NCBI GenBank assembly: GCA_022820945.1
Contig: JAJEEP010000127.1
Location: 1-64,000 of the forward strand
Length of the DNA: 64,000 nt
Direction: 5' to 3'
Source of the DNA: Alphaproteobacteria bacterium
Lineage (GTDB): Bacteria > Pseudomonadota > Alphaproteobacteria > UBA828
The translations under genes and the position numbers were made by a program. How positions within the stretch are numbered: position 1 is the stretch's first letter; each line of letters starts with the position of its first letter. Positions 6,122 to 63,197 of the stretch are shown here, one piece after another. Under the pieces are notes generated by a model. That model saw nothing but the letters and a program-made list of their open reading frames with translations, was not told the origin of the DNA and did no database searches.

Positions 6122-6134
6122 GAGGGCAAATGCG

Positions 6135-10662: not shown

Positions 10663-10677
10663 CCGGGGAGACGAACG

Positions 10678-15910: not shown

Positions 15911-15921
15911 AGGAGACGACC

Positions 15922-16326: not shown

Positions 16327-16334
16327 GAACGGCG

Positions 16335-45370: not shown

Positions 45371-46525
45371 TCAATCTCTCTGCGGCACGGCGGCGCTCTC
45401 GAGGATACGATCCAGCACCTGCCTTACGGCGTTGCGCCACGCCCGTCCGGGCTGCTTCGATTTTCCCTCGGTGGCTGCCACGTGAATCGCGGAATCGAAG
45501 GGCACCGCGATATCGGGTTTGCGGTCGCCCAGCGCGTAGCGGATATGCGCCGGCGACAGCGCGCTTCGCGGCATCCTCGGAAGGCTTTGCACCAAGGTCG
45601 CGGGGTGGCTCGTACCAAGAAGGGCCAGGCATCGAACCGCAGCACTCAGGCTGGACAGCGTCGGTTCGTAGAGCAGCACGCGGGCGTCGGTCTGCTGCAT
45701 GATGTCGAGCTGCGTGACGGGATCCGGGAACCCTCTCACCAGCACCAGGTGCGTCCGGTTGGCGAGGTGCCCGAGCAACCTGAGTACCGAGACCGACGAA
45801 GGTGCTGCCGGAAGGGCCAAATCCAGAGCGTAGGCGAACAGTGACACTTGGGCATCGACGGGCATGCATACGCCGTCGATCCGGTCGGCTGCCGCGCCCA
45901 CATCGGTGTCGTTCCCGGCCTGTGCGCTCAACGCTTCAAGCAACGCCGGAAGACCCTCGGCAGGCTCGGAGCCCAACAGCGCGGGAAGCCGTCCGGATAT
46001 CGGATCGAGATCGACCACCGACACCGTCCGTCCTTCGGCGCCGATGGCACGGGCGAGCGCGGCTACAAGGGTGGAGGTCCCGCTGCCTGCGCTGCCCGCG
46101 AACGCGACCACCCGTCCTGCGTAGGGGCGCTCGGCACCCTCGTCCGTCACCGCCGCGCAGGCCTCGCGCACAAGGGAGGCGGATACGGGTTTGACCAGAT
46201 AGTCGGCGATACCCTGCTGAAATAATTCCCGGGTGTACTGCGCCGTGTCGATGGAGCCGATGGCGATCACGGCGGTCTCGAAGGCGCACACCGCCGTCAG
46301 CTCCCGGGCGGCCGAGCCAGGTTCCGCGATGCCGTCGAGGTCGACGAACAGTACTCTGGAGGCCGGTTCGTTCGCGAGCGTGCGCAGTGCCGCTGCGAGA
46401 CGTCCGCGCTGGATCCTCGCCTTGCGGCCCTCGAGCCCGGAACGAAGCGCCCGCAGCGTCTCGCCATCCGAAGCGAACGCTCGCGCGTAGAGGCTGTCAG
46501 GCGAAAGTGCCATGATCGCGCTCAC
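45371..46525 (-). CDS. cpaE: CpaE/TadZ-like pilus-localisation ATPase
   Basis: 384 aa from GTG 46525 (ATG 46513 gives 380 aa). An N-terminal receiver-like domain (VLFVDLDGI, AVIAIGSID, GIADYLVKPVSASLV) is followed by a ParA/MinD-type domain. The P-loop reads FAGSAGSGTSTLVAAL with no signature lysine. VSVVDLDPISGRLPALLGS and HLVLVRGFPDPVTQLDIMQQ are further CpaE motifs. CpaE/TadZ localises the Tad pilus machine, often with weak ATPase. In a usual tad locus cpaF/tadA follows, but here a nuclease gene does. Confidence 0.75.
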   Translation of the reverse strand: MSAIMALSPDSLYARAFASDGETLRALRSGLEGRKARIQRGRLAAALRTLANEPASRVLFVDLDGIAEPGSAARELTAVCAFETAVIAIGSIDTAQYTRELFQQGIADYLVKPVSASLVREACAAVTDEGAERPYAGRVVAFAGSAGSGTSTLVAALARAIGAEGRTVSVVDLDPISGRLPALLGSEPAEGLPALLEALSAQAGNDTDVGAAADRIDGVCMPVDAQVSLFAYALDLALPAAPSSVSVLRLLGHLANRTHLVLVRGFPDPVTQLDIMQQTDARVLLYEPTLSSLSAAVRCLALLGTSHPATLVQSLPRMPRSALSPAHIRYALGDRKPDIAVPFDSAIHVAATEGKSKQPGRAWRNAVRQVLDRILESAAVPQRD

Positions 46526-46558: not shown

Positions 46559-47218
46559 TCACGAGCCGCCTCCGATCGAGGAGGCCGTCTCGGACGGCGC
46601 GGGCAACTCGCGGACCTGGTCTCCCACCCAACGCCGGTAGCCGTTCAACGGCGCCCCGTGCGTAGCATGCGTGATCCCGGAGGATGCGCAGAGCCGCGCC
46701 TGCGCGTCGGGATCCAACGCTCCCTCCGGCACCACGTTCGCCGGCCCCATGACGCTCGGTGTTGCAGTCGCGCGCTGGCTCTTGCTGCATCCATGCAGCG
46801 CGGCCTGCATGGCCTGATGATAATCCAGCACGTGCTCCGTCTCCGCATGCAGAGAGGCGCTCAAGCCGCGCAGGGGAGCGAAGTAGGTATCCCGTTGCGC
46901 CAACCGCTCCTGGCAGCCGCCGAGAACGACGACGACGCACAGGGCGGCGGTGATGGCGGCTGGGAGGCTGCGGGTCGGGAGGTCGGGCACGACAATGTTT
47001 CCTGCGTTGCGTCGGTCAGGCGGGCGCTCTCCATCCGGGATATCGCCGCGGAGGGAGAGGAAGCCCGCCGGAAATGAGCCGGCATTCGGATCTGGCACGG
47101 CCGCATTGCGGAGACGCGTCCCGGCAGGATGGTTTGCGGCAGGAGTCGAGGCCACCGCGGGGGCGGCTGCAGCTCTCTCCCGCGAAGCGGGGACATCTAT
47201 CGGGCGCGTGTTCCTCAT
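46559..47218 (-). CDS. Membrane-anchored protein at the cpaD position
   Basis: 219 aa from ATG 47218, supported by GGAG 6 bases upstream. The first 85 residues are Ala/Pro/Arg-rich and disordered. A hydrophobic segment ending in a lipobox-like LCVVVVLGGCQ lies internally near residue 100. A GTG at 46990 would make a standard lipoprotein of 143 aa (VPDLPTRSLPAAITAALCVV...). After the Cys come RDTYFAPLRGLSASLHAETEHVLDYHQ and a Ser/Thr-rich end. It sits between the secretin and CpaE, where CpaD/RcpB lipoproteins occur, but similarity to CpaD is not evident. Confidence 0.5.
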   Translation of the reverse strand: MRNTRPIDVPASRERAAAAPAVASTPAANHPAGTRLRNAAVPDPNAGSFPAGFLSLRGDIPDGERPPDRRNAGNIVVPDLPTRSLPAAITAALCVVVVLGGCQERLAQRDTYFAPLRGLSASLHAETEHVLDYHQAMQAALHGCSKSQRATATPSVMGPANVVPEGALDPDAQARLCASSGITHATHGAPLNGYRRWVGDQVRELPAPSETASSIGGGS

Positions 47219-47258
47219 TGCGTACTCCAGGAGGAGAAACTGCACGGCGGCACCGTCC

Positions 47259-50200
47259 TCAGTAGTAGTAACTGTTGTTGGCTTGTCCGGATCCGGCCGT
47301 GATCGCGTCGCCCGGCGCGGGCCCGGCCTGCACCAGGCGGGCGGTCACGGTGACGATCAGCTCCAGCTCGTCCGCCCGGGTCGAGGTGTGTCCGAACATC
47401 GCACCGAGCAGCGGCAGATCCTTGAGCACCGGCACCCCCGACTGCACTTCGTTCGAGGTGCTGCTGAAGAGCCCTGCGATCACGATCGACTCGCCGTCGC
47501 CCATCTCGACGGTAGTCTCGGCACGGCGCACGTTGATCACGGGGACGTTGACGCCACCAGCAACCTGCACCGAGTTATCCTGCGAGGGCTCGGAAACCTC
47601 GGGACGAACCGTAAGCTCGACCCTGCCGTCGTCAACGATCGTCGGTACGAAGTCCAGAACGACACCGTACTTCTTGTACTCGAAGACGATCACCCCGTCC
47701 TTGAAGCCGGACGGCAGCGGAAACTCACCACCCGAGAAGAAGGACGCGGTCTCGCCCGAGTTGGCGGTGACGTTGGGCCGGGCCAGCACGTTAGCAAGGC
47801 CCGCCTTCGCAAGCGCATCGACCATGCCGGTGATGCCGATCTCTTCCCACGTTCTCGATAGAATGAGGGACGGCGACGGCAATCCGTCTACCACTGCTTG
47901 CTCGGTCCTGTTCTGCCGTCCAATCCGGAATCCGCCCCTCAGGTCCCCTTCGGCAGAACGTCCGAAGAGCTCCCAGTTGAACCCGAATTCCTCGGCGATG
48001 GAGCGCTGCACCTCCGCGATCTGCACCTCCAGGTTCACCTGCAGAGGCCCGGCGATGCGCAGGTTGTTCTCCACCAGCGTGTCCGCAGGCAGCGAAACGG
48101 CGGCAAGTCGGTGCGCCCGATCGGCGACCGCAGCCGAGCTGACCTCGCCGCTCAGCGATACGCCATGCCCAAGATCGCGCACGTGGACGCGGTCGAACTC
48201 CGGATTACCCGCAAGGGCCGCACGAAGAGGTCCGGAATCCAGCACCACGCGCAGGTTGTTCTCGACCAGAGCGTCCTCAGGGAGCGTGGCAGCCGCAAGA
48301 CGGCCAGCACGCTCCGCTTCCGTCTGCGACCCCACCTCGCCGGTCAGCGCCACGCCTCGGTCGATCCGGTTGAGGCGGATGCTCTCGAAGCCCTCCTCCG
48401 CAACCATGAGCGCTTCGAGAGGCGCAAGATTCAACCCGACGTTCAGGTTGTCTTCCACCAGCATGCCTTCGGGCAGGGAAGCGGCGGCAAGACGCAGCGC
48501 CCGGTCTGCGGCTTTCGGCGAAGCGACATCGCCGGCCAGCGCGACGCCACGCGCGAGTTTCTGCACGTGCACCCGCTCAAGACCGGGTTCCCCGGCCAGG
48601 AGCGCCCGCAGCGGTTCGACGTCCGGCGCAATGCGCAGGCCGTTCTCGACCGCAATACCCTCGGGCAGCGAGGCCACGGCGAGCCGAAGTGCCCGATCCG
48701 ACGCTTCCACCGAGCCCACCTCGCCCGAGAGCGCCACGCCCCGTCCGATCCGTTTCACCCGGACGTTGCGCAAGTCCGGTACACCTGCAATGAGCACCCG
48801 CAGCGGCGCCAGATCCAGCCGCACGTTCAGGGTGTTCTCCACCAGAACGCCTTCCGGCACGGATGCCGCAGCCAGGCGAAGCGCCAGGTCGGCCGTCGCA
48901 TGCGAGTCGACATCCCCGCTGAGCACGACGCCACGCGCAAGGCGCTGAACCTGCACGCGTTCCAGATCGGACGATCCGGCCAGAAGCGCGCGCAGCGGCT
49001 CCACGTCCCACACCACGCGCAGGTTGTTCTCGACAGGCATGTCTTCCGGGAGAAGCGCGGCCGCGAGGCGGGAGGCCTGATCGGACGCCTCGGCCGAACC
49101 CACCTCGCCGATGAGCGCAACGCCGCGGCCTGTCCGCTGCACACGAACGTCCTTCAGACCGCGCTCGCCGGCCACCAGCGAGCGCAGAGGCGCGAGGTCC
49201 AGTCCCACGTGCAGGTTGTTCTCCACCGGCACGCCTTCCGGAAGTGAGGCTGCCGCCAGCCGGAGTGCGCGGCCTTCCGCCGCATGCGAGTCGACGTCGC
49301 CGGAAAGCGCCACGCCGCGCGCGAGCCGTTGAACCTGAACGCGATCCAGTCCGGGTTCACCGGCCAAGGCCGCGCGCAGGTGTTCGATGTCCGGGACCAC
49401 GCGCAGGCTGTTCTCCACCGGCACGCCTTCCGGGAGCGACGCCGTGGCGATCCGGTGCGCCCGTTCCGACGCCTCCGCCGAAGCGACCTCGCCGGTCAGC
49501 ACGACGCCTCTGCCCAGCTCCTGCACCTGAATGCGGTCCAGTTCGGGCTCGCCAGCCAGAACCGCGCGCAACGGACCGATGTCGAACACCACCCGAAGGT
49601 TGTTCTCCACCGGCAGGCTGTCGGGGATAGAGGCTGCGATCAGACGGTACGCCCGGTCGGACGCCTCTGCCGAAGCGACCTCGCCCGTGAGCGCCACGCC
49701 CTGGCCGACCCGCTGCACCTCGACTCCCTTCAGGCCGGACTCGCCGGCCATGAGCGCCTGGAGCGGCACGAGGTCCAGAACCACGCTCACATTGTTCTCG
49801 ACCAGCAGGCCACCCGGCAGTGAGGCAACGGCCAGACGGTGCGCCCGGTCCGCGGCCTCCGGCGAGGCGACCTCGCCGGCAAGCGCCACGCCTCGCGCTA
49901 GCCGCTGTACGCGGACTTGCTCCAGGCCGGGCTCCGCAGCGAGGACAGTGCGAAGCGGCTCGATGTCGAACTGCACGCGCAGGTTGTTCTCCACCAGGAG
50001 GCTCTCGGGAAGGGAGGCCACTGCCAGACGGTGCGCCCGATCGGCAGCGTCTGCCGAAGCGACCTCGCCCGTGAGCGCCACGCCCCGGCCGATGCGCCTC
50101 ACCTCGACGCCTTCGAGACCGCTCTCGCCCGACATGAGAGCGCGCAAAGGCCCCAGGTCCAGACCCACCTCAAGGTTGCTCTCCACAATCAGGCCTTCCG

Positions 50201-53200
50201 GCAGAGAGGCGGCGGCAAGCCGAGAGGCCCGATCTGCGGCCGCCGGCGAGGCGACCTCGCCGGCGAGCGCCACGCCTCGCGCGAGCTGCCGCAGCTGGAT
50301 CCCTTCCAGGCCCGGCTCGGCCGCCAGGACAGCGCGCAGGGGCTCGATGTCGAACTGCACGCGCAGGTTGTTCTCTACCAGCAGGTTCTCGGGGAGCGAG
50401 GCCACTGCAAGCCGATGTGCCCGATCGGCAGCGTCCGCCGAAGCGACCTCGCCGGTGAGCGCCACACCCCGGCCCACGCGCCGTGCCGCGACGCCCTCGA
50501 GGCCGGGCTCGCCGATCAGCAGCGCGCGCAGCGGATCGAGGTCCAGCCCTACGTCCAGGTTGTTCTCGATCAGCAGGCCTTCCGGCAGGGAGGCGGCGGC
50601 AAGCCGAAGCGCGCGGTCTTCCGCCGCAGGTGAGCCGACGTAGCCCGCAAGGGCCACCCCCCGGGCGAGCCGCTGGACATGCACGCGATCCAGGCCCGCT
50701 TCTCCGGCCAGAAGCACACGCAGAGGCACGATGTCGAACACGACCCGCAGGTTGTTCTCCACCGGAACGCTCTCCGGGAGAGCCGCCACGGCAAGCCGAT
50801 GCGCCCTATCGGCATCCTCTGCCGAGGCAACCTCGCCGGTGAGCGCCACGCCTCTGCCGACCCGCTGCACCTCGACGCCTTCAAGACCGGGCTCGCCGGC
50901 TATGAAAGCGCGCAGCGGCGAGAGATCGTCCAAACCGGGTTCGCCAGCCAGGAGGGCGCGAAGCGGCTCGAGACCAAGGCCTACGGTCAGATTGTTTTCG
51001 ACAAGCAGGCCTTCCGGAAGAGATGCGGAGGCCAGACCGAGCGCGCGCTCCGCCGCGACCGGCGAGTCGACGTAGCCTGACAGGGCCACGCCCCGGGCAA
51101 GCCGTTGCACCTGCACGCGTTCCAGACCGGCTTCACCGGCCAAAATCACACGCAGCGGCACAATATCGAACTCGACACGCAGGTTGTTTTCCACAGGAAC
51201 GGTTTCCGGTAGAGAGGCCACGGCAAGACGGTGCGCCCGATCGGCAACCTCTGGCGAAGCGACCTCGCCGGCGAGTGCTACACCCCTGCCGACCCGCCAG
51301 ACTTCGACATCGGCGAAGCCGGGCTCGCCCGCGAGCAGCGCCCGCAACGGTCCCAGATCCAATCCGACATCGAGGTTGTTCTCGATCAGCGTGTTCTCCG
51401 GGAGCGATGCCGTCGCGAGACCCAGCGCCCGATCCGCCTCCTCCTGCGAGTCGACATGCCCTGCGAGGGCGACGCCACGTGGGAGACGTTTCACCTGCAC
51501 GCCTTCCAGTCCGGGCTCCGAAGCGAAGACGGTGGTCAGGGGCTCTATGTCCGGCACCACGCGCAGGTTGTTCTCCACCGGAACGGTCTCCGGCAGAGCG
51601 GCCACGACTAGCCGCCGTGCCCTTTCGGCATCCTCTACCGAAGCCACCTTGCCCGTCAGCGCGACGCCGCGGCCGACGCGCCGCACCTCGACGCGTTCCA
51701 GGCCAGGTTCCCCGGTGATGAAGACGCGCAGAGGCGCGAGATCGTCCAGGCCGGGCTCGCCGGCCTGGAGTTCACGAAGCGGCTCAAGGCCCAGGCCTAC
51801 GGTCAGATTGTCTTGCACCGCCAAGCCTTCCGGGAGAGACGCGGAAGCCAGACCGCGCGCTCTCTCTGCCGCAACTGGCGAATCGACGTAGCCCGACAGA
51901 GCTACTCCCCGGGCAAGACGTTGCACCTGCACGCGCTCGAGCCCGGGCTCGCCCGCCAGGATCTCGAGCAGGGGTCCGGTGTCGAACACGATTCGAAGGT
52001 TGTTCTCGACCGGCAGGTCTTCTGGAAGCGTGGCCAAGGCGAGGCTGTGCGCCCTTTCGGATGTTTCTGCCGAGGCGACTTCACCGTTGAGGGCCACGCC
52101 CTGACCGAGCCGGCGGACCTCAATGCCTTCAAGACCGGGCTCGCCCGCCAGAAGCACGCGTAGCGGCGAAAGGTCCGCCACCCGCAGGTTGTTCTCCACC
52201 GGTACGCTCTCCGGTAGAAAGTCGACGGCGAGACGGCCCGCCAAGTCCACCAGAGCCGGCGAGGCGACTTCGCCCACAAGTGCGACCTCGTGCGTCAGGC
52301 TCTCCACGCGCACGCCTTGCAGGCCGGCCTCCCCGGCCAGAACAGCGCGCAGCGGCTCAAGGTCCGCCACCCGCAGGTTGTTCTCCACCGGCACGCTCTC
52401 CGGGAGAGACGCGACCGCAAGCCGATGCGCCAGGTCGGCGGACCGCGCCGAAGCGACTTCGCCGGTCAGAGCGACACCCCAAGCCACCTGCCGCACATGA
52501 ACGTGGGCCAGTCCGGTCTCGGCAGCAAGGAGAGCCCGCAGCGGCAAGAGATCGAGGACCAGGTTCAGATTATTCTCCACCAGCACGCCTTCCGGCAGAG
52601 AGGCTGCGGCCAGACGAAGGGCGCGGTTGGCAGCCTCCGGTGCGTCCACCTCGCCTGCAAGTGCCACACCGCGGGCCAGCCGCTGTACCTGAACTCGATC
52701 GAGCCCCGGCTTTGCAGCCAGAACCGTACGAAGAGGCCCGATGTCGATAGTCACCCGAAGGTTGTTCTCAACCGGGAGGCCTTCCGGAACCGCGGACAAG
52801 GCCAATCGACGCGCCCGATCGGCAACCTCTGCCGAAGCGACCTCTCCCGTAAGCACGACGCCCCTGCCGACCCGCTTGACCACGACGTCGGCAAGACCGG
52901 GCTCGCCCGTCAGAAGCGCACGCAACGGTCCCAGATCCAACCCGACGTCGAGGTTGTTCTCGATCAGCGTGCCCTCCGGGAGCGATGCCGTCGCGAGACC
53001 GAGCGCCCGATCCGCCCCCTCCTGCGACTCGACGTGCCCTGCGAGGGCGACGCCACGGGAGAGGCGTTTCACCTGGACGCCTGCCAGACCGGGCTCTGAA
53101 GCGAAGACGGTGGTCAGGGGCTCGGTGTCGAAAAACACTCGCAAGTTGTTCTCAGCCGAAATGGCCTCCGGAAGCGAGGTCACGGTGAGACTGTGCGCCC

Positions 53201-55739
53201 TTTCGGCTGCTTCTGCAGAAGCGACCTCACCGGTGAGCGCCACGCCCCGGCCGACCCGCCGGACCTCGACGTCGGCGAGACCGGGCTCGCCTGCGAGCAG
53301 CGCCCGCAACGGCTCCAGCTCCAACCCGACGTCGAGGTTGTTCTCGACCAGAGTGCCTTCGGGGAGCGAGGCCGTCGCGAGACCGAGCGCCCGATCCTCC
53401 GCCTCTTGCGAGTCGACATCCCCGGCAAGGGCAACACCTCTGGTGAGGCCTTCCACCTGCACCCCTTGCAGGCCGGGCTCTCCGGCCAACAGCGCGCGCA
53501 GGGGCTCAAGATCAAGAATGACCGACACGTCCCGCTCGAATACGGACCCGTCCTCGCCGAGCACCGAGACGGTGGTGCGGCCCAGGTTCCGCCCCATGAC
53601 GAACAGAACCCGCGGCGTGAGCAGCTGGACGTCGGCGATGTCGGGAGACGCAATCGCAACCGCCGCAGCGTCGACGCCAAGTGTGAGCCGCTGGCCCGTT
53701 CCCAGCAGAACTGTCCATTCGTCGCTCGGGGCCGGCTCCGGCGGTGCCGTCTCGGCAACCTGCGGGAGCCAGTCGTCGTGACCCTCCGATTCAACCGCCG
53801 TAAGGGCATGAAAGCCCGCTGCACTCCCTTTCGGCATCCACACCGAATCCCACAAGGGGTCGATATACGGCGAAGAGGCGGAGGCGAGCAGGAAGGGACG
53901 ATGGGCGGCAGGTGCAGCGGAGAACGGGTCGTAGTTCGAGTAGTCGTTCAGGATCGCTACGTTCACGACCAGCGTCGGGCCGGGTTCGGACCGGTGCGTT
54001 CCGCCCGCGCCTTCGATCGCGGCCAACTGCAGGCCCGAAGCCTGTGCCGTCGCGACGTCCGATGCGCCCTCGGGTGTTGCGCTGGTCGCTCCGGATTCGC
54101 GCGAGAGGGAGTCCGATGAAGACGGAGTCCGCAGGGACGCGTTGTTCTGCAGTGGCGGACCGTCGTGGGGGGAAACGGCCAGGAGAAGCGCATTCGCAGA
54201 CTGCAGCGGTTCGGTCTCGGATCGAAGCGCCGGTTCCCCCATCCCCGCCGTTGCGAAAGGGATGCCGGCGGCCCGGACCGCCCCGGCTTCGTGGATGTGC
54301 AGGGGCGCCCCCGGTGAGCTCGTGGCCGCGTCGGAGTCCTGCACGGCGGACCCGGACGAGACCTGGGCATGCGAGGACGCCGCAACCAGGACCAAACCGC
54401 TGCGGAGCGCGCCGTCAATTGGAAGCACATCCTCCACCGGCACCGCATCGGTCTCCGCATTGCCCGGCGGCGTCTCATCGGTAGATGTCGCTGAAGGTGG
54501 GCCTCCAGCCGGCGCATCGACTTCCAATACTCCTTCGCGTGATGTGCCTTCAGGATCGATGCGCAGCACGAGTACGTCGGACCACGAAGAGGAGCCGGAT
54601 CGAGTGACGGACGACGCTGGGACCTCGCGGGGAAGTGTAGCCGCGAGGGCGGGGATTGCAGCCCGCGGCGACCCGCGCTCCCCAACGGAGGGCTGGTATT
54701 CGGGCGTGCCTCGCTTGGAGGTCGGGACGGGATCTGCTGTCTCTTCCAGTGGCGGTTCGGACAAGACGGGTGCTGCCGGTGCCGCCGCGGGCCTCGCGGC
54801 CATCGTCGCCGGTGTAGCCGGGAACAAGCGGCCCCCGATCGTCAGCACGGGTCCCTCCGGGCCGGTGCGCAGGCCGCTGTCTGCAGGGTACGCTGCGGCG
54901 TCCGACGGCTCAGGGAGCGCCTTCATCTCAGTCAGCCGCAACAGAAGGCGCGGATCGAAGCGGTCGGGCGGCGGCGACAGGCGCCAGGCCTCGCCGATCA
55001 GGCTTTGCAGTGCCTGCCGGTCGCCTTCATCCCAATAGGACGTTGCGTAGGCCCCGTACGTGCGCTCCGCCTCGTCGATGCGCCCGGACGCGATGAGCAT
55101 GCGGATGAAGTTGGCCGCTATGCGGGAATGAGCGGACGGCTGGCGGAGAGCGCTTGCGTAGTGGGCTTCGGCGGTCGAGTAGTCTTCCTCGAAGACCGCG
55201 GCCACGGCGAGGCCGTTCTCGATCCAGGCGATGGTCGAGGAATCCTCCGCAAGGTCGCGCGCTGCCGCCAGGTACCGCCTGGCAGTCCCGCCGTCGCCCT
55301 GGGCCAGGGATGCGCGGGCGGCACCGAGTAGCGCCTCCGCCCTCATGCCGGGCGCATCGTCCGCCAGCTTCGCGGCCCGCCTGAAGTGGTCGCCGGCCTC
55401 GCCGGGCCTCTCCGTCTGCAGGGCGATGTAGCCAAGCCCGAGGAACGGCTCGGGCGCGTCGTCGAAGCGCTCGGCGAGCGCCAGGTAGAGCTTGTGCGCG
55501 ACCGCCGGCTGGCCGGCCGCGAGCGCGGCGGATGCGACCGACAGGTTGCTCTGCAGCAGCTGCTCGCCTCCTGGCGAGCGGCTCTCCCCGGACAGTCCCC
55601 AGCAGGCCGAAAGAGAGAACAGAACGGCAGCCATCGCCGCGGCGCGCCGGATGGCCTCGAACGGCCAGCCCCGTGCGTGCTCCTGGGGCTGCCCGGGTTT
55701 GGCCGGGACCGGATATCTGTCGGTGTGTGCCGTATTCAT
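47259..55739 (-). CDS. Giant TadD-CpaC fusion: TPR lipoprotein, 28 BON-like repeats, secretin
   Basis: 2826 aa from ATG 55739 (GGAG 8 bases upstream). Residues ~30-50 hold a lipoprotein signal (AAAMAAVLFSLSACWG). Residues ~60-290 are TPR-like and resemble TadD (LYLALAERFDDAPEPFLGLGYIAL, AAKLADD). Residues ~290-690 form a Pro/Ala/Ser-rich linker. Residues ~690-742 are the CpaC N-terminal domain (VLLGTGQRLTLGVDAAAVAI, ADVQLLTPRVLFVMG). Residues 743-2563 are 28 copies of a ~64-aa BON-like unit (next entry). Residues 2564-2826 are the secretin domain (VNLEVQIAEVQRSIAEEFGFNW, ANVLARPNVTANSGE, VGVPVLKDLPLLGAMF). Typical CpaC/RcpA proteins are 450-600 aa with one such unit. The secretin forms the outer-membrane pore for Tad/Flp pili. 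Confidence 0.85.
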   Translation of the reverse strand: MNTAHTDRYPVPAKPGQPQEHARGWPFEAIRRAAAMAAVLFSLSACWGLSGESRSPGGEQLLQSNLSVASAALAAGQPAVAHKLYLALAERFDDAPEPFLGLGYIALQTERPGEAGDHFRRAAKLADDAPGMRAEALLGAARASLAQGDGGTARRYLAAARDLAEDSSTIAWIENGLAVAAVFEEDYSTAEAHYASALRQPSAHSRIAANFIRMLIASGRIDEAERTYGAYATSYWDEGDRQALQSLIGEAWRLSPPPDRFDPRLLLRLTEMKALPEPSDAAAYPADSGLRTGPEGPVLTIGGRLFPATPATMAARPAAAPAAPVLSEPPLEETADPVPTSKRGTPEYQPSVGERGSPRAAIPALAATLPREVPASSVTRSGSSSWSDVLVLRIDPEGTSREGVLEVDAPAGGPPSATSTDETPPGNAETDAVPVEDVLPIDGALRSGLVLVAASSHAQVSSGSAVQDSDAATSSPGAPLHIHEAGAVRAAGIPFATAGMGEPALRSETEPLQSANALLLAVSPHDGPPLQNNASLRTPSSSDSLSRESGATSATPEGASDVATAQASGLQLAAIEGAGGTHRSEPGPTLVVNVAILNDYSNYDPFSAAPAAHRPFLLASASSPYIDPLWDSVWMPKGSAAGFHALTAVESEGHDDWLPQVAETAPPEPAPSDEWTVLLGTGQRLTLGVDAAAVAIASPDIADVQLLTPRVLFVMGRNLGRTTVSVLGEDGSVFERDVSVILDLEPLRALLAGEPGLQGVQVEGLTRGVALAGDVDSQEAEDRALGLATASLPEGTLVENNLDVGLELEPLRALLAGEPGLADVEVRRVGRGVALTGEVASAEAAERAHSLTVTSLPEAISAENNLRVFFDTEPLTTVFASEPGLAGVQVKRLSRGVALAGHVESQEGADRALGLATASLPEGTLIENNLDVGLDLGPLRALLTGEPGLADVVVKRVGRGVVLTGEVASAEVADRARRLALSAVPEGLPVENNLRVTIDIGPLRTVLAAKPGLDRVQVQRLARGVALAGEVDAPEAANRALRLAAASLPEGVLVENNLNLVLDLLPLRALLAAETGLAHVHVRQVAWGVALTGEVASARSADLAHRLAVASLPESVPVENNLRVADLEPLRAVLAGEAGLQGVRVESLTHEVALVGEVASPALVDLAGRLAVDFLPESVPVENNLRVADLSPLRVLLAGEPGLEGIEVRRLGQGVALNGEVASAETSERAHSLALATLPEDLPVENNLRIVFDTGPLLEILAGEPGLERVQVQRLARGVALSGYVDSPVAAERARGLASASLPEGLAVQDNLTVGLGLEPLRELQAGEPGLDDLAPLRVFITGEPGLERVEVRRVGRGVALTGKVASVEDAERARRLVVAALPETVPVENNLRVVPDIEPLTTVFASEPGLEGVQVKRLPRGVALAGHVDSQEEADRALGLATASLPENTLIENNLDVGLDLGPLRALLAGEPGFADVEVWRVGRGVALAGEVASPEVADRAHRLAVASLPETVPVENNLRVEFDIVPLRVILAGEAGLERVQVQRLARGVALSGYVDSPVAAERALGLASASLPEGLLVENNLTVGLGLEPLRALLAGEPGLDDLSPLRAFIAGEPGLEGVEVQRVGRGVALTGEVASAEDADRAHRLAVAALPESVPVENNLRVVFDIVPLRVLLAGEAGLDRVHVQRLARGVALAGYVGSPAAEDRALRLAAASLPEGLLIENNLDVGLDLDPLRALLIGEPGLEGVAARRVGRGVALTGEVASADAADRAHRLAVASLPENLLVENNLRVQFDIEPLRAVLAAEPGLEGIQLRQLARGVALAGEVASPAAADRASRLAAASLPEGLIVESNLEVGLDLGPLRALMSGESGLEGVEVRRIGRGVALTGEVASADAADRAHRLAVASLPESLLVENNLRVQFDIEPLRTVLAAEPGLEQVRVQRLARGVALAGEVASPEAADRAHRLAVASLPGGLLVENNVSVVLDLVPLQALMAGESGLKGVEVQRVGQGVALTGEVASAEASDRAYRLIAASIPDSLPVENNLRVVFDIGPLRAVLAGEPELDRIQVQELGRGVVLTGEVASAEASERAHRIATASLPEGVPVENSLRVVPDIEHLRAALAGEPGLDRVQVQRLARGVALSGDVDSHAAEGRALRLAAASLPEGVPVENNLHVGLDLAPLRSLVAGERGLKDVRVQRTGRGVALIGEVGSAEASDQASRLAAALLPEDMPVENNLRVVWDVEPLRALLAGSSDLERVQVQRLARGVVLSGDVDSHATADLALRLAAASVPEGVLVENTLNVRLDLAPLRVLIAGVPDLRNVRVKRIGRGVALSGEVGSVEASDRALRLAVASLPEGIAVENGLRIAPDVEPLRALLAGEPGLERVHVQKLARGVALAGDVASPKAADRALRLAAASLPEGMLVEDNLNVGLNLAPLEALMVAEEGFESIRLNRIDRGVALTGEVGSQTEAERAGRLAAATLPEDALVENNLRVVLDSGPLRAALAGNPEFDRVHVRDLGHGVSLSGEVSSAAVADRAHRLAAVSLPADTLVENNLRIAGPLQVNLEVQIAEVQRSIAEEFGFNWELFGRSAEGDLRGGFRIGRQNRTEQAVVDGLPSPSLILSRTWEEIGITGMVDALAKAGLANVLARPNVTANSGETASFFSGGEFPLPSGFKDGVIVFEYKKYGVVLDFVPTIVDDGRVELTVRPEVSEPSQDNSVQVAGGVNVPVINVRRAETTVEMGDGESIVIAGLFSSTSNEVQSGVPVLKDLPLLGAMFGHTSTRADELELIVTVTARLVQAGPAPGDAITAGSGQANNSYYY
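48051..53513 (-). repeat. Array of 28 BON-like coding repeats in the secretin
   Basis: Each unit is about 192 bp and encodes roughly: DLEPLRALLAGEPGL, three to five variable residues, V.V.RL.RGVALAGEV, S.E.ADRA.RLA.ASLPE, .VENNLRV. Two unit types alternate: A (QRLARGVALAG..D/S) and B (RRVGRGVALTGEVAS). The order reads A-B-A-B from the N-terminus, with a phase slip around unit 21. Two 15-residue partial copies (GLEPLRxLxAGEPGL) interrupt units 9/10 and 13/14. Units 3 and 11 are nearly identical, as are the junctions at 9/10 and 13/14, implying block duplication. Confidence 0.9.
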
Positions 55740-55773
55740 GATCGGGCTCCGGGACGATTTCCTGGCGGGGACT

Positions 55774-56859
55774 TCAGTCACATTCCACCTGCCGCAAAGC
55801 TTGGTCAGGGAAACTCGACGCCCAGGCATCGCGCAGGTCCTCGAAGCTGCCGGAAAGGCGCGCCTCGATCGTGGCGTACTCCTGGACCGTCATGGAATTG
55901 GGCTCCACCACGGGCGCGTAGCCGAGTTCCTCCAACCGTGCCACCCGCCGCGACGCGTTCGCCTCTTTGGCGTAAATGCCCAGAGAGACGGCGTTCTTCC
56001 TGGCACCCTTTGGAATCACCGCAATGTCACTCACGCCTTTCTCGCGCAGATCGCCGAGCGCCGCGTCGGCAGCCTTGCGGCTCTCGAAGGGCGGCAGGTA
56101 GACCCGGTACTCCCTGACTCTCTCGCGAGTGCCGTGCGAGACACGCGTTGCTTCCGCGCCGAGCGCCGCCAGCCACAGCCGTGCTTCCTCGACAGTGCCC
56201 AAGTCCAGGAACTCCCCCGTCGCCAGGCAGGCCGCGGCGACCGCCTCGTCGGCCAGCGCCGGCCTTTCGGGAATCGCGGGCGGCTCGTTGCCGGATGCTG
56301 GCTCCAACGCGGTCGCAGGCTCGGAGACGGTACCGGCCGCATCGCTCGCCTGCAGGATCTCCGTGCCGGGGTCGCCGTCGTCATCTCCATCCCTGGACCT
56401 GCCGTCGCGGAGCGCATGGCTCTGCGCATAGGCAAGCCTTGCAAGCTTCTCGTAGACTTCGCCCAGGTTGCGGTAGCCCACGGCCTCCGGGCGCCGTTCC
56501 AGGATTGCCGCCAGGACCGCCCGCGCCTCTTCCAGCCGGCCTTCGTCCACGTAGAGCACCGCGAGATTGTTGTGCGCCTCGAACATGTCGGGGAACTCCC
56601 GCGCGAGTCCGGAGAAGACGGCGATCGCTTCGCCCCTGTGTCCCTCCTGCACCCGAAGGACCCCGTGCAGCAGCCGCAGCTGCGCGTTGCCTGGCTCGTT
56701 CTCCAGCAGGGGATCGAGAACCCGCCGTGCCTCCGGATAGCGTCCTTCGGCGGCGAGCGAGAGCGCGCGGTCGAGGGTGTCGGCGGCCGCTGCGGCGGCA
56801 GACAACAGGACTCCCGCCAATACCGCGACGGCCACGAGGGCCTTGGCAATCCTGGTCAT
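55774..56859 (-). CDS. Exported TPR-SPOR protein
   Basis: 361 aa from ATG 56859, supported by GGAGGAGACC directly upstream. A signal peptide (ALVAVAVLAGVLLSAAAAAA) leads three or so TPRs (residues ~27-150: RALSLAAEGRYPEARRVLDPLL, LLHGVLRVQEGHRGEAIAVFSGL, EAHNNLAVLYVDEGRLEEARAVL). A Pro/Glu/Ala linker follows. A C-terminal region (VREYRVYLPPFESRKAADAALGDLREKGVSDI, LGIYAKEANASRRVARLEELGY) resembles a SPOR domain that binds denuded peptidoglycan. It lies upstream of the giant secretin, and the TPR part resembles TadD as well. It could guide secretin assembly through the cell wall. Confidence 0.7.
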   Translation of the reverse strand: MTRIAKALVAVAVLAGVLLSAAAAAADTLDRALSLAAEGRYPEARRVLDPLLENEPGNAQLRLLHGVLRVQEGHRGEAIAVFSGLAREFPDMFEAHNNLAVLYVDEGRLEEARAVLAAILERRPEAVGYRNLGEVYEKLARLAYAQSHALRDGRSRDGDDDGDPGTEILQASDAAGTVSEPATALEPASGNEPPAIPERPALADEAVAAACLATGEFLDLGTVEEARLWLAALGAEATRVSHGTRERVREYRVYLPPFESRKAADAALGDLREKGVSDIAVIPKGARKNAVSLGIYAKEANASRRVARLEELGYAPVVEPNSMTVQEYATIEARLSGSFEDLRDAWASSFPDQALRQVECD

Positions 56860-56902
56860 GGTCTCCTCCACTCTTTCCCACTGCCGGGGACGCTCACGCC
56901 CT

Positions 56903-58711
56903 TCACGCCGTGGTGCGGCGGCCCTCGTCCTGGCCTGTGGCCGGGCGGCCGTTCCTGGCGACACCGGAGTCTCCGTTGCCCGCAATCCAGCTCGCGATGT
57001 GCTTGTTGGCGATCGAGCGGATCCGCTCGTGCAGCGCCTCCGAGACGGCCGCCATACGCTCGACGTCGCCCGGAACACGGGGGTCCGGAGCCTCGGCACT
57101 GCCGGGCCAGCCTGCGGCCGTGCGCGTCGCAGCCCCGATCCCCCTGAACGTGCCCGCGGTCATGGACGCTTCCTCGAGCGCCGTCGGCGCGTCGGTGCCG
57201 CGACCGCGTTGAATGCGGTCCAACACCTGCTCCATCTGCCGTGCCGCCTCCAGGGTCTCTCGTTCGCTCTCGGAGAATGCGCTGCCTTCAGCCTCCCCCT
57301 TGTCCAGGATCCAGCCGCCTTCCTTGCCCGCGCTGCGGATCGCGGTCTGGCCCCGCCATGCGTCCGTGGCGAAGGAGAGGCCGAGGCGAACCTGCTCGAT
57401 CAGCCCGAGGGCCGTGATCCGCCCGGCTGCACCGCCTTCGATCTCGACCGCGCGATACCCGGCCTCCGGTTCCTCTTCCGCATGCAGCCGCAGGCCACCC
57501 GTCCGTGTGCCCTCGCGGCTCTGTGCGCCCGCGTCGGCCAGCAGTGCTGTGGCAAGCTCCTCCAGCCAGCGGGGAACGCTCTGTTTCGCCAACGCGGACC
57601 CCAGCTCCGCCCGGACCGCAGCGGAATCCTCGGTGTTGCGCAGCCGCGACAGCGCATGGGCGAAGCCGATACCGTTGGATTCGCGCATCCGCCGACGCAC
57701 CGCGTCCGGAAGCCTCTCCGCAGCTTCCCTGAGGCCGCTCAGCTCCCGCTCCGGAGCCAACTCCTCGACCGGCGACCCGAGCTGAAGCAGTCTGGCGGTC
57801 TCTTCGTTCGCCGCCCTAATGCGCGCCTCCAGCGCGGAAATGTCATTCGAATCCGAGGCTTCGGTCGTGGGAAGTTTCGGGGGAGGCGCCGCTGCAGGCG
57901 GGCGGGCCGCGGCGGGTCGCTCCTCCTCTTTCTTCTTCTTGACGTCCGTACTGGCCGCCTCGATCGCCTGCTCGGCAAGAGTCCGCAACCACTGAATCTC
58001 GCCCGGATCGAACGAATGCAGGCGGTAGCCCGTCATCGGTGCGTAGTAGCTCCGCCGCGGCGCATGCGCCCCCCGGACGTTGCGCAGACGGATAGCGGAC
58101 AGTGCGGCGCGTGTCTTGAGTTCCTGAGTGTTCCAGGTCCGGTCGAGTGAGACAGCGAGTTCTGCCGCCGTCCGGCGATCGGGACCGCTCCCGGAGGAGG
58201 GACGCAGGTGTTCCAGCATGCGGACGGCGTAGAGCCCGAGGAGGCTCGTCGTCCCGCCGTCCACCGTCCTGTGCCGCTCGCCGGCCTCGATCCAGCGGTC
58301 TACCGCCTCGTGCACCGCCGCCGCAAGCTCCAGCGCCAGGACCGCGTAGCCGGCAACGGCCTCCGGACGGACGCCAGTATGGACCTCGCCGCTGAGGCGA
58401 CTGCGGATACAGTAGCTCTCGCCCTCCGACTCGATCGAGGCCTGCCGGATCCAGGCGGCGGCATCCGTCTGCCGCTCCGTGCCCCGGACGAGGTCGGCGG
58501 GCACGATACCGGTCTCGTTCACCAGACGGTTCGCAAGGACCTCGACAGCCTCCGGCAGGCGCGCATGCACACGCCCCGCCTCGCCCAGCCTGGCTCCGGT
58601 CCTGGGGTCTTCCAGTATCGTCCAGTCGAGCGGCGCGGTGCCGTCCAGTCGCTTCCTGGTCGCCTGAGGGAGCGCCGTGACGGCGCGGGTGAACAGCTTC
58701 TCGGTATTCAA
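56903..58711 (-). CDS. 602-aa cytoplasmic-type protein of the Tad locus, unknown
   Basis: ATG 58711 (MNTEKLFTRAVTALPQATRK). There is no signal peptide or membrane span. The N-terminal half is alpha-helical with ALELAAAVHEAVDRWIEAGER. The middle is a charged linker (STDVKKKKEEERPAAARPPA) followed by a coiled-coil-like region (ISALEARIRAANEETARLL). The C-terminal half has IRSAGKEGGWILDKGEAEGSAFSE and AARQMEQVLDRIQ. It ends in a hydrophilic tail. It sits between cpaB and the TPR-SPOR gene on the same strand, so a pilus regulatory or assembly role is possible, but no family is recognised. Confidence 0.5.
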   Translation of the reverse strand: MNTEKLFTRAVTALPQATRKRLDGTAPLDWTILEDPRTGARLGEAGRVHARLPEAVEVLANRLVNETGIVPADLVRGTERQTDAAAWIRQASIESEGESYCIRSRLSGEVHTGVRPEAVAGYAVLALELAAAVHEAVDRWIEAGERHRTVDGGTTSLLGLYAVRMLEHLRPSSGSGPDRRTAAELAVSLDRTWNTQELKTRAALSAIRLRNVRGAHAPRRSYYAPMTGYRLHSFDPGEIQWLRTLAEQAIEAASTDVKKKKEEERPAAARPPAAAPPPKLPTTEASDSNDISALEARIRAANEETARLLQLGSPVEELAPERELSGLREAAERLPDAVRRRMRESNGIGFAHALSRLRNTEDSAAVRAELGSALAKQSVPRWLEELATALLADAGAQSREGTRTGGLRLHAEEEPEAGYRAVEIEGGAAGRITALGLIEQVRLGLSFATDAWRGQTAIRSAGKEGGWILDKGEAEGSAFSESERETLEAARQMEQVLDRIQRGRGTDAPTALEEASMTAGTFRGIGAATRTAAGWPGSAEAPDPRVPGDVERMAAVSEALHERIRSIANKHIASWIAGNGDSGVARNGRPATGQDEGRRTTA

Positions 58712-59781: not shown

Positions 59782-60255
59782 TCATATCCCGTCCGAGAGC
59801 GCCCGCAGAGCCAGGACGATCACGGCCGGCGGGGCGATCGCGACCGCGAACGGCAGCTCCTTGCGCATGCGCCGCATCCTCTCGAAGGGCAGAAGGGCGG
59901 CCACGACGAGCGCCAGCGCGAACGCCGCCATGCCGAACAGGAAGAGGGTCAGGTGGGAGAGCGCAGGACCGATCCAGACACCGGCCACGGCGAACAGCTT
60001 GGCATCTCCGGCTCCGAAGCGCCCCGTCAGAAAGAGACCGAACCCGGCGGCGAGAATGATCGCGCCGACCGCAATGTGCTGCCAAAGGTCCCCAAGAGGT
60101 CTCACCGCGCCCGCTGCCGCGTAGACCGCAAAGAGGCCGAACAGCAGAAGAGGAACGGCGTTCGGAACCTCGCGGCGGCGCACATCGGTAGCGACGCTCG
60201 CGGCGAACAAAGCACACGCCGCAGCCTCTGCGATATGGACGACCACGTCGGCCAT
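59782..60255 (-). CDS. cpaA: CpaA/TadV-like prepilin peptidase (A24)
   Basis: 157 aa from ATG 60255 with GAGGAG five bases upstream. It is a small polytopic protein with both aspartate motifs of A24 peptidases: ASVATDVRRREVPNAVPLL and LTGRFGAGDAKLFAVAGVW. The length fits TadV rather than PilD. It would process Flp prepilins and pseudopilins, and no such pilin gene is in the window. A TTG 12 bases upstream is a less likely start. Confidence 0.85.
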   Translation of the reverse strand: MADVVVHIAEAAACALFAASVATDVRRREVPNAVPLLLFGLFAVYAAAGAVRPLGDLWQHIAVGAIILAAGFGLFLTGRFGAGDAKLFAVAGVWIGPALSHLTLFLFGMAAFALALVVAALLPFERMRRMRKELPFAVAIAPPAVIVLALRALSDGI

Positions 60256-60267
60256 GTGTCTCCTCAA

Positions 60268-63021
60268 CTATTTCCATGCGACTGCGAACCGGATTCGGCA
60301 GGCTTCGCGCCGAACGCGGCGATCGCCCGGCGGATCCGTCCGGCGGCACAAGGCTGGATCAGGTGCAAGAGTGCCGGCATCACAGTCGGTGCCAAAGCGT
60401 GAACATGAGCGCGCGGTCGATTGCCGGACGTTCGCGAAATTCGACTTTCGCCACCAAATCCGGTGTCTCTCGGAGTGCGACACCCAGGGTTGGCTGGACA
60501 GACTGGCGGCGCGATTCGCCAACCACGCCAAGGTACGGCCGTATCGTCCCGAACGGTCCCCCCCCAACCCGTAGCCGGCCTCGCCGTGAATGCTCACGCT
60601 GGGAGATTGCTCGTGGGTTAAGGACCGGAGACGAGTCTCAACGCCCAGCCCGAAGCCTCGACCGAGGCCGTCAGGAGCGAAACGAAGGCCGGCGCCGAGA
60701 CCCCAGAGGTCCTGGTCGTTCTCGCCGAGACCAAACGCAGCCTCGATGCTCCCCGTCAGGCTGAGGCGGGGATCGAAGACTCCCGCAACCGAGAAGGAGC
60801 CCTCTGTCTCCAGCGACCCACCATCGGCCCCATCCCCGGTCAGGTGCTTGTACGCCATGGATATCGAAGGTGAGCCTGGGAGAGGCGCGCTCCACGCCAG
60901 GCCGGCGCGATAGTCGCGTCCTCGTATCGCGGGCAGCGACGAGGATATGCTGCCACCGCCCTCGATCTTCAACGCAAAGGATTCGATGCCCGCTTCTGCC
61001 TGAAGCTCCCCGGACAGCACCTCGGCAACGGGAACGGCAGCGCCCGCGGCGTAGCTGAGCAGGCTTGCGTCGGAGCGCGACCAGGAAGGGAAACCAAGGT
61101 CGTCGCGATGGCGCAGCTCGCCCGTTCCGGCGCCGAGAGACACCCATACGTGTCCGCCAGTCGAGGCGTGCCACGCTGCAAAGGGATGCAGCGACAGGAA
61201 TTCCGTGTCGTGTTCGCCGGCAAGGTAGCCGCGTTGGGCTAGGCTCGCCTCGGCACGGTAGTGAAGACCGGTTCGGACGAACGAAGCGAGCGCGCCCACC
61301 TGCCAGGAGCCGGCTCCGAGCTCCGCTCCGGCGCTCAGAGCCTCGCTTGTCCCGCTGTAGTCGAAGCCGCTGCTCTCGCCCGACAGCGACGCAAGGCCTA
61401 CCGCAGGGGTAATGGCCGTGAAAGTGCGCGCCTCACCGGAAGACCAGTTGCGAACTTGGTCCCGAACGGCAGTGTGAGCGACATCGACGGCGCGGCGCGC
61501 ATGCACGGGCGCGAGCGCCGTGTGGACGGGATTGGAGACCGGCGGGAGCGAAGCGGACGACGGCTGCAAGGGTGCTGCCGGGCACCTCCACATCTCGCCA
61601 TCCCAGTGCGCATCGTCACGTATCCGGAGAGACGCGATCAGCTGGTCATCTTCAACATCCTCATCTTCGTCGCGGAAGCTGACATCGATACACAGCGTGT
61701 CGTCGACCGTATTGCCGAAGAGGACTTGATAAAGGTACGTGGAGGTGACGCCGTGCGCGGGGTCCCTCCCTGGTTCGGGATGGACGTATTCCAGCTGGCG
61801 CGAGTCCGGAGCGGGATCGAACCCGAGTGGCTGGGGGACGATGAGCCGGTAGACCGGAGCGGTGTCGTTTGGCTGTGTTCCTCGCTCAACCTGCGCTTCG
61901 GGCAGTTGAAGAACCAGCTGTGGGTCCGCATCGTTGTTTCTGTTCAAAGGCCGATCTTGCTGCACGAGGCTTCTTTCGGCGTCGGGGAACCGCCACTTTG
62001 CACGTTCGGGACTAATGATGAGCGCAATGCTTCGTGCGGCGCTTGCTGGAGGATTGGAGCTGTCGGTCACTCGGTACGAGCAGTCCGGGCCCCCATAGGC
62101 CACCTCGGGTGTGCCGGACAGAACCCGGGTTTGCGGGCCGAACCCCAAACCGGGAGGGAGCACGGTGGGAGGGGGAAACGTGCCAGGGGCAGGGTCCGGG
62201 CACTCAAGCTCATAGGTGTAAGGCCACACACCCCCGGTTGCTGGCTGGAACACTATTCTGGCGCGCTCGCCCACCCTTAGGCGCAGGACGTTCCCTGGTA
62301 CGACATGATTGGGAAGGGAAAGGCTGCCCGCCCCGCCCGTCACCTCGACCTCGACGGCCCTTGATCGGGTCGCGGGGGGTTGCGCGCTGTCTGTCACCGT
62401 GTAGGTGCATGAGTCCCGAAAATTGGTGTCCGGTGTACCCGCGAACACGCCGGTCGCAGGCGCGAAGCCCATCCCCGACGGCAGCTGCCCTCCGGCACAG
62501 GTGAAGTCGTAAGTGTAGGGCCGGACACCGTCGGTAGCTTCCGCCAACTGCTCGCCGAAGTAAGTCCCCACGGTGAGCTCGATCGGGTCCGGGGTGGGAA
62601 GGGAAAGGCTGCCCGCCCCGCCCGTCACCTCGACAACCAGACGAAGCCCATAGGTGACGCTCCGCTGCGGCCGGAAGCCAGGGTCGGCCTCGGTGACTGT
62701 GTAAGTGCATAAGAAGCTCTTGCCCCGGTCCCCATCAGGGGCCATGCTCGCAAGGATGCCCTGGTCCTGATAGAGCGATACCCATACGGGACAATCTTCG
62801 ATGCTTGTTTCATAGGGACGAAAAAAGCCGGGGATACTGAACGGGAGCTGGTACTCCCTCGGTTGTCCCGCAACAAACTCGAGCTCAAGCAGCTCAGTCT
62901 CCGGTATTTCTTCCACCTCCCCCACCGGGCGCTCGATTGAGAGGCCGCCACCGCCGCACGCTGCCGTCAGGATGGCGGCGAGGACGGCGAACGGAACCAG
63001 GTGCCGCGCACATCGCGCCAT
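60268..63021 (-). CDS. PIG-domain/beta-barrel surface lipoprotein, frameshifted at a G8 tract
   Basis: 917 aa as read, from ATG 63021 (MARCARHLVPFAVLAAILTAAC, lipobox). The exposed part has repeated Ig-like PIG modules (LELTVGTYFGEQLAEATDGVRPYTYDFTC, GAGSLSLP twice). A beta-barrel follows from about residue 600 (GSWQVGALASFVRTGLHYR, GYGLGGDRSGR). At 60558-60565 the coding strand has eight Gs. After it the frame becomes unlike a barrel and runs to 60268. One more G would give GYGLGGGPFGTIRPYLGVVG, then ETPDLVAKVEFRERPAIDRA, ending WHRL with stop at 60380-60382, a normal barrel C-terminus. The gene is therefore either switched off by slippage or mis-sequenced. Confidence 0.65.
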   Translation of the reverse strand: MARCARHLVPFAVLAAILTAACGGGGLSIERPVGEVEEIPETELLELEFVAGQPREYQLPFSIPGFFRPYETSIEDCPVWVSLYQDQGILASMAPDGDRGKSFLCTYTVTEADPGFRPQRSVTYGLRLVVEVTGGAGSLSLPTPDPIELTVGTYFGEQLAEATDGVRPYTYDFTCAGGQLPSGMGFAPATGVFAGTPDTNFRDSCTYTVTDSAQPPATRSRAVEVEVTGGAGSLSLPNHVVPGNVLRLRVGERARIVFQPATGGVWPYTYELECPDPAPGTFPPPTVLPPGLGFGPQTRVLSGTPEVAYGGPDCSYRVTDSSNPPASAARSIALIISPERAKWRFPDAERSLVQQDRPLNRNNDADPQLVLQLPEAQVERGTQPNDTAPVYRLIVPQPLGFDPAPDSRQLEYVHPEPGRDPAHGVTSTYLYQVLFGNTVDDTLCIDVSFRDEDEDVEDDQLIASLRIRDDAHWDGEMWRCPAAPLQPSSASLPPVSNPVHTALAPVHARRAVDVAHTAVRDQVRNWSSGEARTFTAITPAVGLASLSGESSGFDYSGTSEALSAGAELGAGSWQVGALASFVRTGLHYRAEASLAQRGYLAGEHDTEFLSLHPFAAWHASTGGHVWVSLGAGTGELRHRDDLGFPSWSRSDASLLSYAAGAAVPVAEVLSGELQAEAGIESFALKIEGGGSISSSLPAIRGRDYRAGLAWSAPLPGSPSISMAYKHLTGDGADGGSLETEGSFSVAGVFDPRLSLTGSIEAAFGLGENDQDLWGLGAGLRFAPDGLGRGFGLGVETRLRSLTHEQSPSVSIHGEAGYGLGGDRSGRYGRTLAWLANRAASLSSQPWVSHSERHRIWWRKSNFANVRQSTARSCSRFGTDCDAGTLAPDPALCRRTDPPGDRRVRREACRIRFAVAWK
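62310..62634. repeat. 40-bp exact direct repeat in the PIG domains
   Basis: TGGGAAGGGAAAGGCTGCCC and the 20 bases after it occur identically at 62310-62349 and 62595-62634, encoding VEVTGGAGSLSLP at the start of two PIG modules. Confidence 0.9.
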
Positions 63022-63197
63022 CCCACGGCCCGAGGGCGAGCGCGAGTCTCCCGCAGACGCGCTCCGCTCCGACGGACGACAGAACATGCTCCGTTCCGTT
63101 CTCATGCTGAGCCTGCGTTCCCGAACCGATCCCGTGCCACGTCAGTCATGGTGCGACGGAGGGTCGACGCCGTTGCCATTCCTTAGGGCCCCGTGTC

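Follow-up and report, generated by a model that had tools for sequence, protein, structure and literature searches.

A single open frame of 2856 codons from its first ATG, about six times the usual size for a pilus exit pore of its kind, was found on the minus strand of a 64,000-nucleotide stretch of alphaproteobacterial DNA (contig JAJEEP010000127.1, positions 1 to 64,000), which is referred to here as the window. The locus raises two questions: whether such a frame encodes one genuine protein, and what the long series of repeated domains in it could do. An internal ATG at 55739 would give a product of 2826 aa, and this ATG is the probable start, since the longer frame would overlap with the upstream gene, which ends at 55774. 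The preliminary description of this DNA had the position right, with 2826 aa from the ATG at 55739; the strand, however, is minus, and the first ATG gives the longer product.

Identity of the protein and its tad locus

Pfam searches with the giant protein recovered BON (E=1.4e-110, in 26 stretches), Secretin PF00263 (E=1.9e-40, over the cut-off), T2SS-T3SS_pil_N PF13629 (E=3.7e-13; 49 bits vs a cut-off of 23) and TPR_19 (E=3e-6), and the closest solved relative was RcpA of P. aeruginosa (PDB 8odn, E=2.3e-38). Based on the N-domain, the secretin domain, the complete tad locus and RcpA as the best solved relative, the protein can be identified from its sequence, with near certainty, as a Tad (type IVc) pilus secretin of the outer membrane. 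The initial assignment to the Tad secretins, with a CpaC-type N-domain, was thus upheld. The features are listed in Table 1.

Table 1. Features of the giant secretin gene and of the neighbouring tad genes (window coordinates; aa numbered from the first ATG)
Feature	Position	Strand	Basis or remark
Giant gene: TadD-like lipoprotein, N-domain, 28 N3/BON units, secretin	47259..55829	-	ORF, Pfam, intact orthologues L046, L047, L048
Signal peptide and lipobox FSLSAC/W; candidate lipidated Cys at aa 76 (codon 55602-55604)	55602..55739	-	Sequence and orthologue alignment
TPR domain, TadD/PilF-like, aa 77-290, 11 helices	54960..55601	-	AF2 model, profile, Foldseek
Linker, aa 291-700, about 410 aa, A/P/S-rich, weakly constrained	53730..54959	-	dN/dS, alignment
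Tad secretin N-domain (T2SS-T3SS_pil_N, VirB9-like), aa 701-771	53517..53729	-	Pfam PF13629
Array, 28 units x 64 aa (BON / secretin N3), aa 772-2593	48051..53516	-	Unit profile, AF2 model
Partial duplication of a unit (16 aa, P0001 aa 1346-1361), located between units 9 and 10	51747..51794	-	Spacing 80, not 64
Partial duplication of a unit (16 aa, P0001 aa 1618-1633), located between units 13 and 14	50931..50978	-	Spacing 80, not 64
Secretin base and secretin domain, aa 2594-2856 (PF00263 at 47331-47816)	47262..48050	-	Pfam, RcpA 8odn E=2e-38
C-terminal tail YYY (chain end NSYYY), candidate pilotin-binding tail	47262..47270	-	Alignment of relatives
TadZ/CpaE-like ATPase	45371..46525	-	Pfam
Small predicted lipoprotein between secretin and TadZ, position of CpaD	46559..47245	-	Homologues beside single-unit relatives
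TPR-SPOR gene with signal peptide, upstream of giant	55774..57099	-	Pfam, neighbourhood comparison
RcpC/CpaB alignment protein, ordinary length 311 aa	58828..59763	-	Pfam
TadV/CpaA prepilin peptidase (Peptidase_A24)	59782..60267	-	Within the tad locus

Starting near 45 kb in the window, the tad locus extends past the window end. The part within the window comprises the TadZ-like gene, the small lipoprotein, the giant secretin, the TPR-SPOR gene, RcpC and the peptidase; past the window lie TadC/TadB (T2SSF), a second RcpC, TadA (T2SSE, C95:70422-71264) and TadE/TadG-like genes. Pfam gave no match for the small predicted lipoprotein. The TPR-SPOR gene adjoins the giant genes in two relatives as well (locus L048 and genome G007) and is absent from the loci of the single-unit relatives described below, and its SPOR domain suggests binding to the cell wall. 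The second RcpC/CpaB (L038:5250-6251; contig C95, about 69.3-70.2 kb) shares 96% protein identity with the first; the pair has the appearance of a recent duplication or gene conversion, and G007 also seems to hold two copies. Moreover, the giant gene is the only secretin over the Pfam cut-off in G007, so the Tad pilus of that genome, provided that it is functional, must depend on this gene. A different contig of the window genome encodes a second fused secretin, which is of the ordinary type (762 aa).

Several other features were recorded on the same DNA. Positions 60268-63105 of the tad locus (minus strand) encode a 945-aa predicted lipoprotein with Ig-like repeats and an autotransporter-barrel-like C-terminal part, which is conserved in G007, and a MauG-type di-haem cytochrome c peroxidase gene (L038:961-1974, minus strand), 86% identical in G007, lies within the tad locus. 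At the opposite window end, 600-1631 and 9772-10374 (plus strand) gave two more matches to T2SSE-type ATPases, with related pairs in G001 and G007. Many short 18-bp tandem repeats, unrelated to the secretin, were reported by Tandem Repeats Finder at 3630-22375, dispersed across the first third of the window.

The array of N3 units and its orthologues

A unit profile counted exactly 28 full-length units in the window gene, the same number of BON-like units as in the preliminary description. The units are nearly always spaced by 64 aa, with no linkers between successive units, and two 16-aa partial duplications are present in addition. Such partial duplications, each an extra first helix, also occur once or twice per protein in the three orthologues, at sites that differ by species. 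In an AF2 model of six units, every unit adopted an alpha-beta-beta-alpha-beta fold (pLDDT 90), and with a pTM of 0.47 the angle between units is not fixed by the model. The nearest solved structures were YscD, OsmY, CdsD, DolP and PrgH, several of which are tandem ring-forming domains. The unit occupies the same place as the single unit of the fused relatives, which is also the position of N3 in the RcpA paper, between the N-domain and the secretin of RcpA homologues; the array unit is accordingly assigned, by sequence and position, as an N3 domain. The statement that one BON-like domain is the norm for Tad secretins holds for most RcpA/CpaC proteins, in which this domain is N3, but not for P. 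aeruginosa RcpA, which is without it.

The units of the array largely alternate between two types, A and B, with an identity of 0.66 at lag 2 and 0.57 at lag 1, and in unsupervised clustering the type switched at 23 of the 27 steps (13.9 by shuffling). The pattern AAAABABB at the C-terminal end is common to the window, L046 and L048. Furthermore, the first unit and the last eight units are kept in position across species, with one or two exceptions in L047, whereas the middle varies, which indicates that units are gained and lost in the middle of the array. The unit counts (20, 28, 28 and 36) are multiples of four and lie 8 apart, which may be chance with three distinct values only.

Because the window genome is assembled into 178 contigs, with 95% completeness and 6% contamination, independent copies of the giant gene were sought. 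The orthologue L046 has 96% nucleotide identity to the window and a 2900-aa open frame with 28 units; L047, from a genome of the same genus (G007, deposited as RHO3_bin_58), encodes 3410 aa with 36 units in an intact frame; and L048 has a 2344-aa open frame with 20 units. No exact DNA repeat within the giant gene is longer than 36 bp in the window copy or, in the other three, than 41, 29 and 31 bp, and the sequences contain no N. The contig names of L046 and L048 bear the k141 assembler label. With exact repeats of 29-41 bp, a short-read assembler with k of about 141 should not collapse the array, and collapse or invention of units by the assembler is unlikely. An assembly artefact was ruled out by the short exact repeats together with the orthologues, which come from separate MAGs and have intact frames. 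As a separate matter, L046 (JAJDTX010000126.1) and L048 (JAJDWM010000237.1) are deposited as Bryobacterales (Acidobacteriota) and have the gene content of the alphaproteobacterial relatives; these two assemblies are probably mislabelled.

Codon comparison gave dN/dS values of 0.26, 0.18 and 0.21 for the array in three comparisons, indicating purifying selection, and a non-coding or broken frame was thereby ruled out. Among the other parts, the secretin had values of 0.10-0.18, the TPR region 0.15-0.29 and the linker 0.57-0.67. Constraint on the array is thus similar to that on the secretin and the TPR domain and is relaxed in the linker, a pattern that points to one protein which is folded save for the linker. 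The preliminary description had left room for an artefact of assembly or a break in the frame; the intact orthologues with 20, 28 and 36 units and the dN/dS values speak against both.

The built-in predicted lipoprotein and the history of the fusion

The lipobox FSLSAC, recognised by inspection and in the orthologue alignment, precedes the TPR part. In the AF2 model (pLDDT 92) the TPR region forms 11 helices, and TadD likewise consists of five TPRs plus one helix, 11 helices in all (PMC10499894). A PDB profile search with this region returned PilF (E=2e-7) and TadD (8odn_B, E=7e-4), with generic TPR proteins matching equally. Similarly, a Foldseek search with the model gave PilF at a TM of 0.66-0.71, with designed and eukaryotic TPR proteins scoring as high, and TadD was not found among the best 50 fold matches. 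The region is TadD-like as a kind of fold, which is well supported; the sequence similarity is weak and does not amount to orthology. With a lipobox and a five-TPR domain in one frame with the secretin, the originally described fusion to a predicted TPR lipoprotein that resembles TadD was supported. In another genome (G049), the genome-wide best match to the TPR profile lies about 6 kb from the Tad secretin.

The linker measures about 417, 410 and 452 aa in the giants with 20, 28 and 36 units, respectively (range 410-455), and about 65 aa in the single-unit relatives. Neither a long linker nor a long array was seen outside the giant clade, and linker length barely follows unit number among the giants. 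A conserved island, possibly a docking motif, was noticed in the otherwise divergent linker at P0001 aa about 615-670 (NDYSNYDPFSAAPAAHRPFLLASA...DPLWDSVWMP). At the other end of the chain, a tail of the form Y-[YH]-[YF] is present in all complete relatives, with residues unlike those of the RcpA tail. The residue at +2 of the lipobox is W in all four giants and A or T in the single-unit relatives, which leaves the membrane of the lipid anchor uncertain.

The relatives also reveal the order of events. Six Defluviicoccus-type MAG loci (L049-L053 and L055) have secretin frames of about 620-750 aa with one unit each, and five of these (L049, L050, L052, L053 and L055) carry the whole series of TPR lipoprotein, N-domain and unit; the open frame of L051 does not include the lipobox end, and L055 is cut by the contig end. 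A further locus (L054) has a single unit but lacks the TPR region, the secretins of two same-family genomes (G009 and G012) are unfused, and the TPR profile found no match in the 21 long Tad secretin frames examined. Since fused relatives with a single unit exist, the TPR-secretin fusion is older than the array, and an origin of both together was ruled out, as was, by the 21 frames, fusion as a common trait of long alphaproteobacterial Tad secretins. In the secretin tree the giants form one clade (support 96/100); several outgroup rows were badly aligned and the other branches were poor, and the giant clade alone was used.

A six-unit profile was run against 385 class genomes and 398 phylum genomes, both sets being samples drawn evenly from larger groups; it detected no further array, and its only matches were N3 domains that occur singly, in frames of 482 and 520 aa. 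The search for secretins with tandem BON domains that had been suggested at the outset produced no array beyond the giant clade in these samples. Judged from these sequences, the fusion is rare and the array expanded once, in one clade. A viral or plasmid origin was also rejected, with no relatives in viral contigs and none in plasmids. One Defluviicoccus-type relative, bin129, came from the sponge Aplysina aerophoba (PMC5649159), and the uncultured alphaproteobacterium that carries the giant gene probably lives in a sponge as well. Nothing was found in the literature on tandem-BON secretins, pilotin-secretin fusions or an enlarged periplasm in such symbionts.

Proposed function and comparison with known systems

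The reading that we favour, with a chance that we put slightly above even, is a self-piloted Tad secretin in which the amplified N3 array holds the N-domain far from the outer membrane. TadD binds the last four residues of RcpA, and secretin assembly needs TadD (PMC10499894). In the giant, the lipid anchor and the TPR domain would pilot the secretin to the outer membrane, and the TPR domain probably grips the C-terminal tail as TadD grips that of RcpA; with the tail conserved in all complete relatives, a pilotin domain gripping the tail of its own chain is the simplest reading. Twelve to fourteen chains would form the pore, and the array would extend from its base into the periplasm, with the N-domain at the far end. 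In P. aeruginosa, the secretin N-domain is the docking site of RcpC, which makes up the inner-membrane ring (PMC12307814), so the array would set the distance from the pore to the N-domain, on which the RcpC/CpaB ring could dock. At least the pore-proximal units, whose positions are conserved in all species, probably form stacked N3 rings, and the middle of the array, which varies in length, may enclose the pilus as a long conduit or cage that could be extensible.

The dimensions of such an array can be estimated from YscD, a three-domain rod that stretches from a compact 6.5 nm to 11.5 nm (PMC3728920). Scaled from its three domains, one unit would measure 2.2-3.8 nm, which gives computed lengths of 43-77 nm for 20 units, 61-107 nm for 28 and 78-138 nm for 36. 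Published intermembrane distances are 29-33 nm for Caulobacter, at its machine (PMC13170226), and 30-36 nm for Yersinia (PMC3728920); a rigid envelope-spanning tube of 61-107 nm would thus fit only into an envelope that is unusually wide or is deformed locally. By this estimate, the excess over 29-36 nm counts against a far-reaching array, as do the RcpC that is still 311 aa long and the sister species that are 8 units apart. The linker length that hardly varies with unit number among the giants, and the W at +2, also tell against the favoured reading. The linker speaks for it. Its contour length is about 23 nm for the 65 aa of the one-unit relatives and about 145-159 nm for the 410-455 aa of the giants; a 28-unit chain would have to return about 60-107 nm to the pilotin, and the lengthened linker therefore favours an array that reaches far from the outer membrane, a circumstantial argument in which the linker of about 145 nm would be the slack that lets the chain come back from the far end of the array to the outer-membrane pilotin. 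The strictest form of this proposal, a 12- to 14-fold secretin with 20-36 stacked N3 rings that form a continuous periplasmic conduit of about 45-140 nm, with a widened or deformed envelope and a length set by the unit number of each species, seems doubtful to us. If real, it would be, to our knowledge, the longest conduit of any secretin. The very long periplasmic tube proposed in the preliminary description is likewise a possibility at most.

The same measurements can be read in another way, which we consider a possible but lesser candidate than the self-piloted secretin with a distant N-domain. Only the last unit or units would form an N3 ring, and the other BON units would remain unstacked as an extensible string, which would fill or line the periplasm, tether the N-domain/RcpC ring, absorb changes in intermembrane distance or bind membrane or wall. 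A flexible tether or spring of this type would accommodate the copy numbers that differ by 8 between sister species, any straight array being longer than known periplasms, and the low interdomain confidence of the six-unit model (pTM 0.47); moreover, the nearest fold, YscD, is elastic (PMC3728920), and phospholipid binding is reported for BON proteins such as DolP (PMC7806268). However, the conserved positions of the last 8 units and the largely regular A/B alternation suggest ordered contacts between neighbours, and 64-aa units that follow each other without linkers are not what a loose string would be expected to have.

Two further explanations are much less probable. That the lipid stays in the inner membrane and the array of each chain bridges the distance to the outer membrane appears improbable to us, although it would suit the W at +2 that separates the four giants from their single-unit relatives with A or T. 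In one genetic study of E. coli, lipoproteins with W at this position were reportedly kept back at the inner membrane. For this lineage, however, such a +2 rule is not established, the pilotin-like TPR part and the conserved C-terminal tail both point to the outer membrane, and a linker of 410 aa would be superfluous in a chain anchored in this way. Neutral drift in length, in which the N3 unit expands by tandem duplication and the extra units are tolerated but do no more than fold, is in our opinion the least probable account: the number and identity of the mid-array units vary between species and the 16-aa partial duplications fit such a process, but 20-36 in-frame units in all sampled members of the clade, with dN/dS of 0.18-0.26, and the lengthening of the linker in the same clade do not.

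Secretins are known with at most a few periplasmic ring domains. The natural series of 1, 20, 28 and 36 units on one scaffold can be used to test whether N3 domains stack without limit, what determines the length of the periplasmic vestibule and how secretin machines adapt to the intermembrane distance, and the fused giants can show whether a pilotin functions when tethered in its own secretin chain. If the array forms rings, the envelope of these sponge symbionts would be very unlike that of model bacteria.

The giants represent a new architecture of a known machine, namely a Tad secretin that carries 20-36 N3 domains and is probably self-piloted. The window protein resembles RcpA/CpaC (PDB 8odn) in the N-domain, the N3/BON unit where present, the secretin fold, the tad locus and the C-terminal tail; RcpA/CpaC proteins, however, are about 420-550 aa long with none or one N3 and have their pilotin in a separate gene, whereas the giant has 28 N3 units and a fused candidate pilotin. 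The fixed 1:1 ratio of pilotin to pore, which had been put forward as a consequence of the fusion, is not new because RcpA and TadD already assemble 1:1. TadD and PilF, lipoproteins with five TPRs and 11 helices of which TadD binds the secretin C-terminus, are separate pilotins, whereas the corresponding TPR domain of the giant is the N-terminal part of the secretin itself. HxcQ-type liposecretins are reported to be self-piloted by their own N-terminal lipid anchor, according to work cited in PMC3542185; the lipobox of the giant suggests such an anchor there as well, but the HxcQ-type proteins have no TPR pilotin domain and no N3 array and belong to type II secretion, not Tad. YscD, PrgH and CdsD of type III secretion also carry tandem BON-like, ring-building periplasmic domains in a single chain; unlike the giant, they have three such domains, are inner-membrane ring components and are without a secretin. 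In GspD of the T2SS and PilQ of the type IV pilus, N-domain rings are stacked beneath the secretin, but these N-domains are few and are not tandem copies of one unit. Close counterparts are the fused single-unit secretins of sponge Defluviicoccus-like MAGs (L049, L050, L052, L053 and L055), which are about 730-750 aa long and whose TPR lipoprotein, N-domain, unit, secretin and tail are like those of the giant; they have one unit and a linker of about 65 aa where the giant has 28 units and a linker of about 410 aa.
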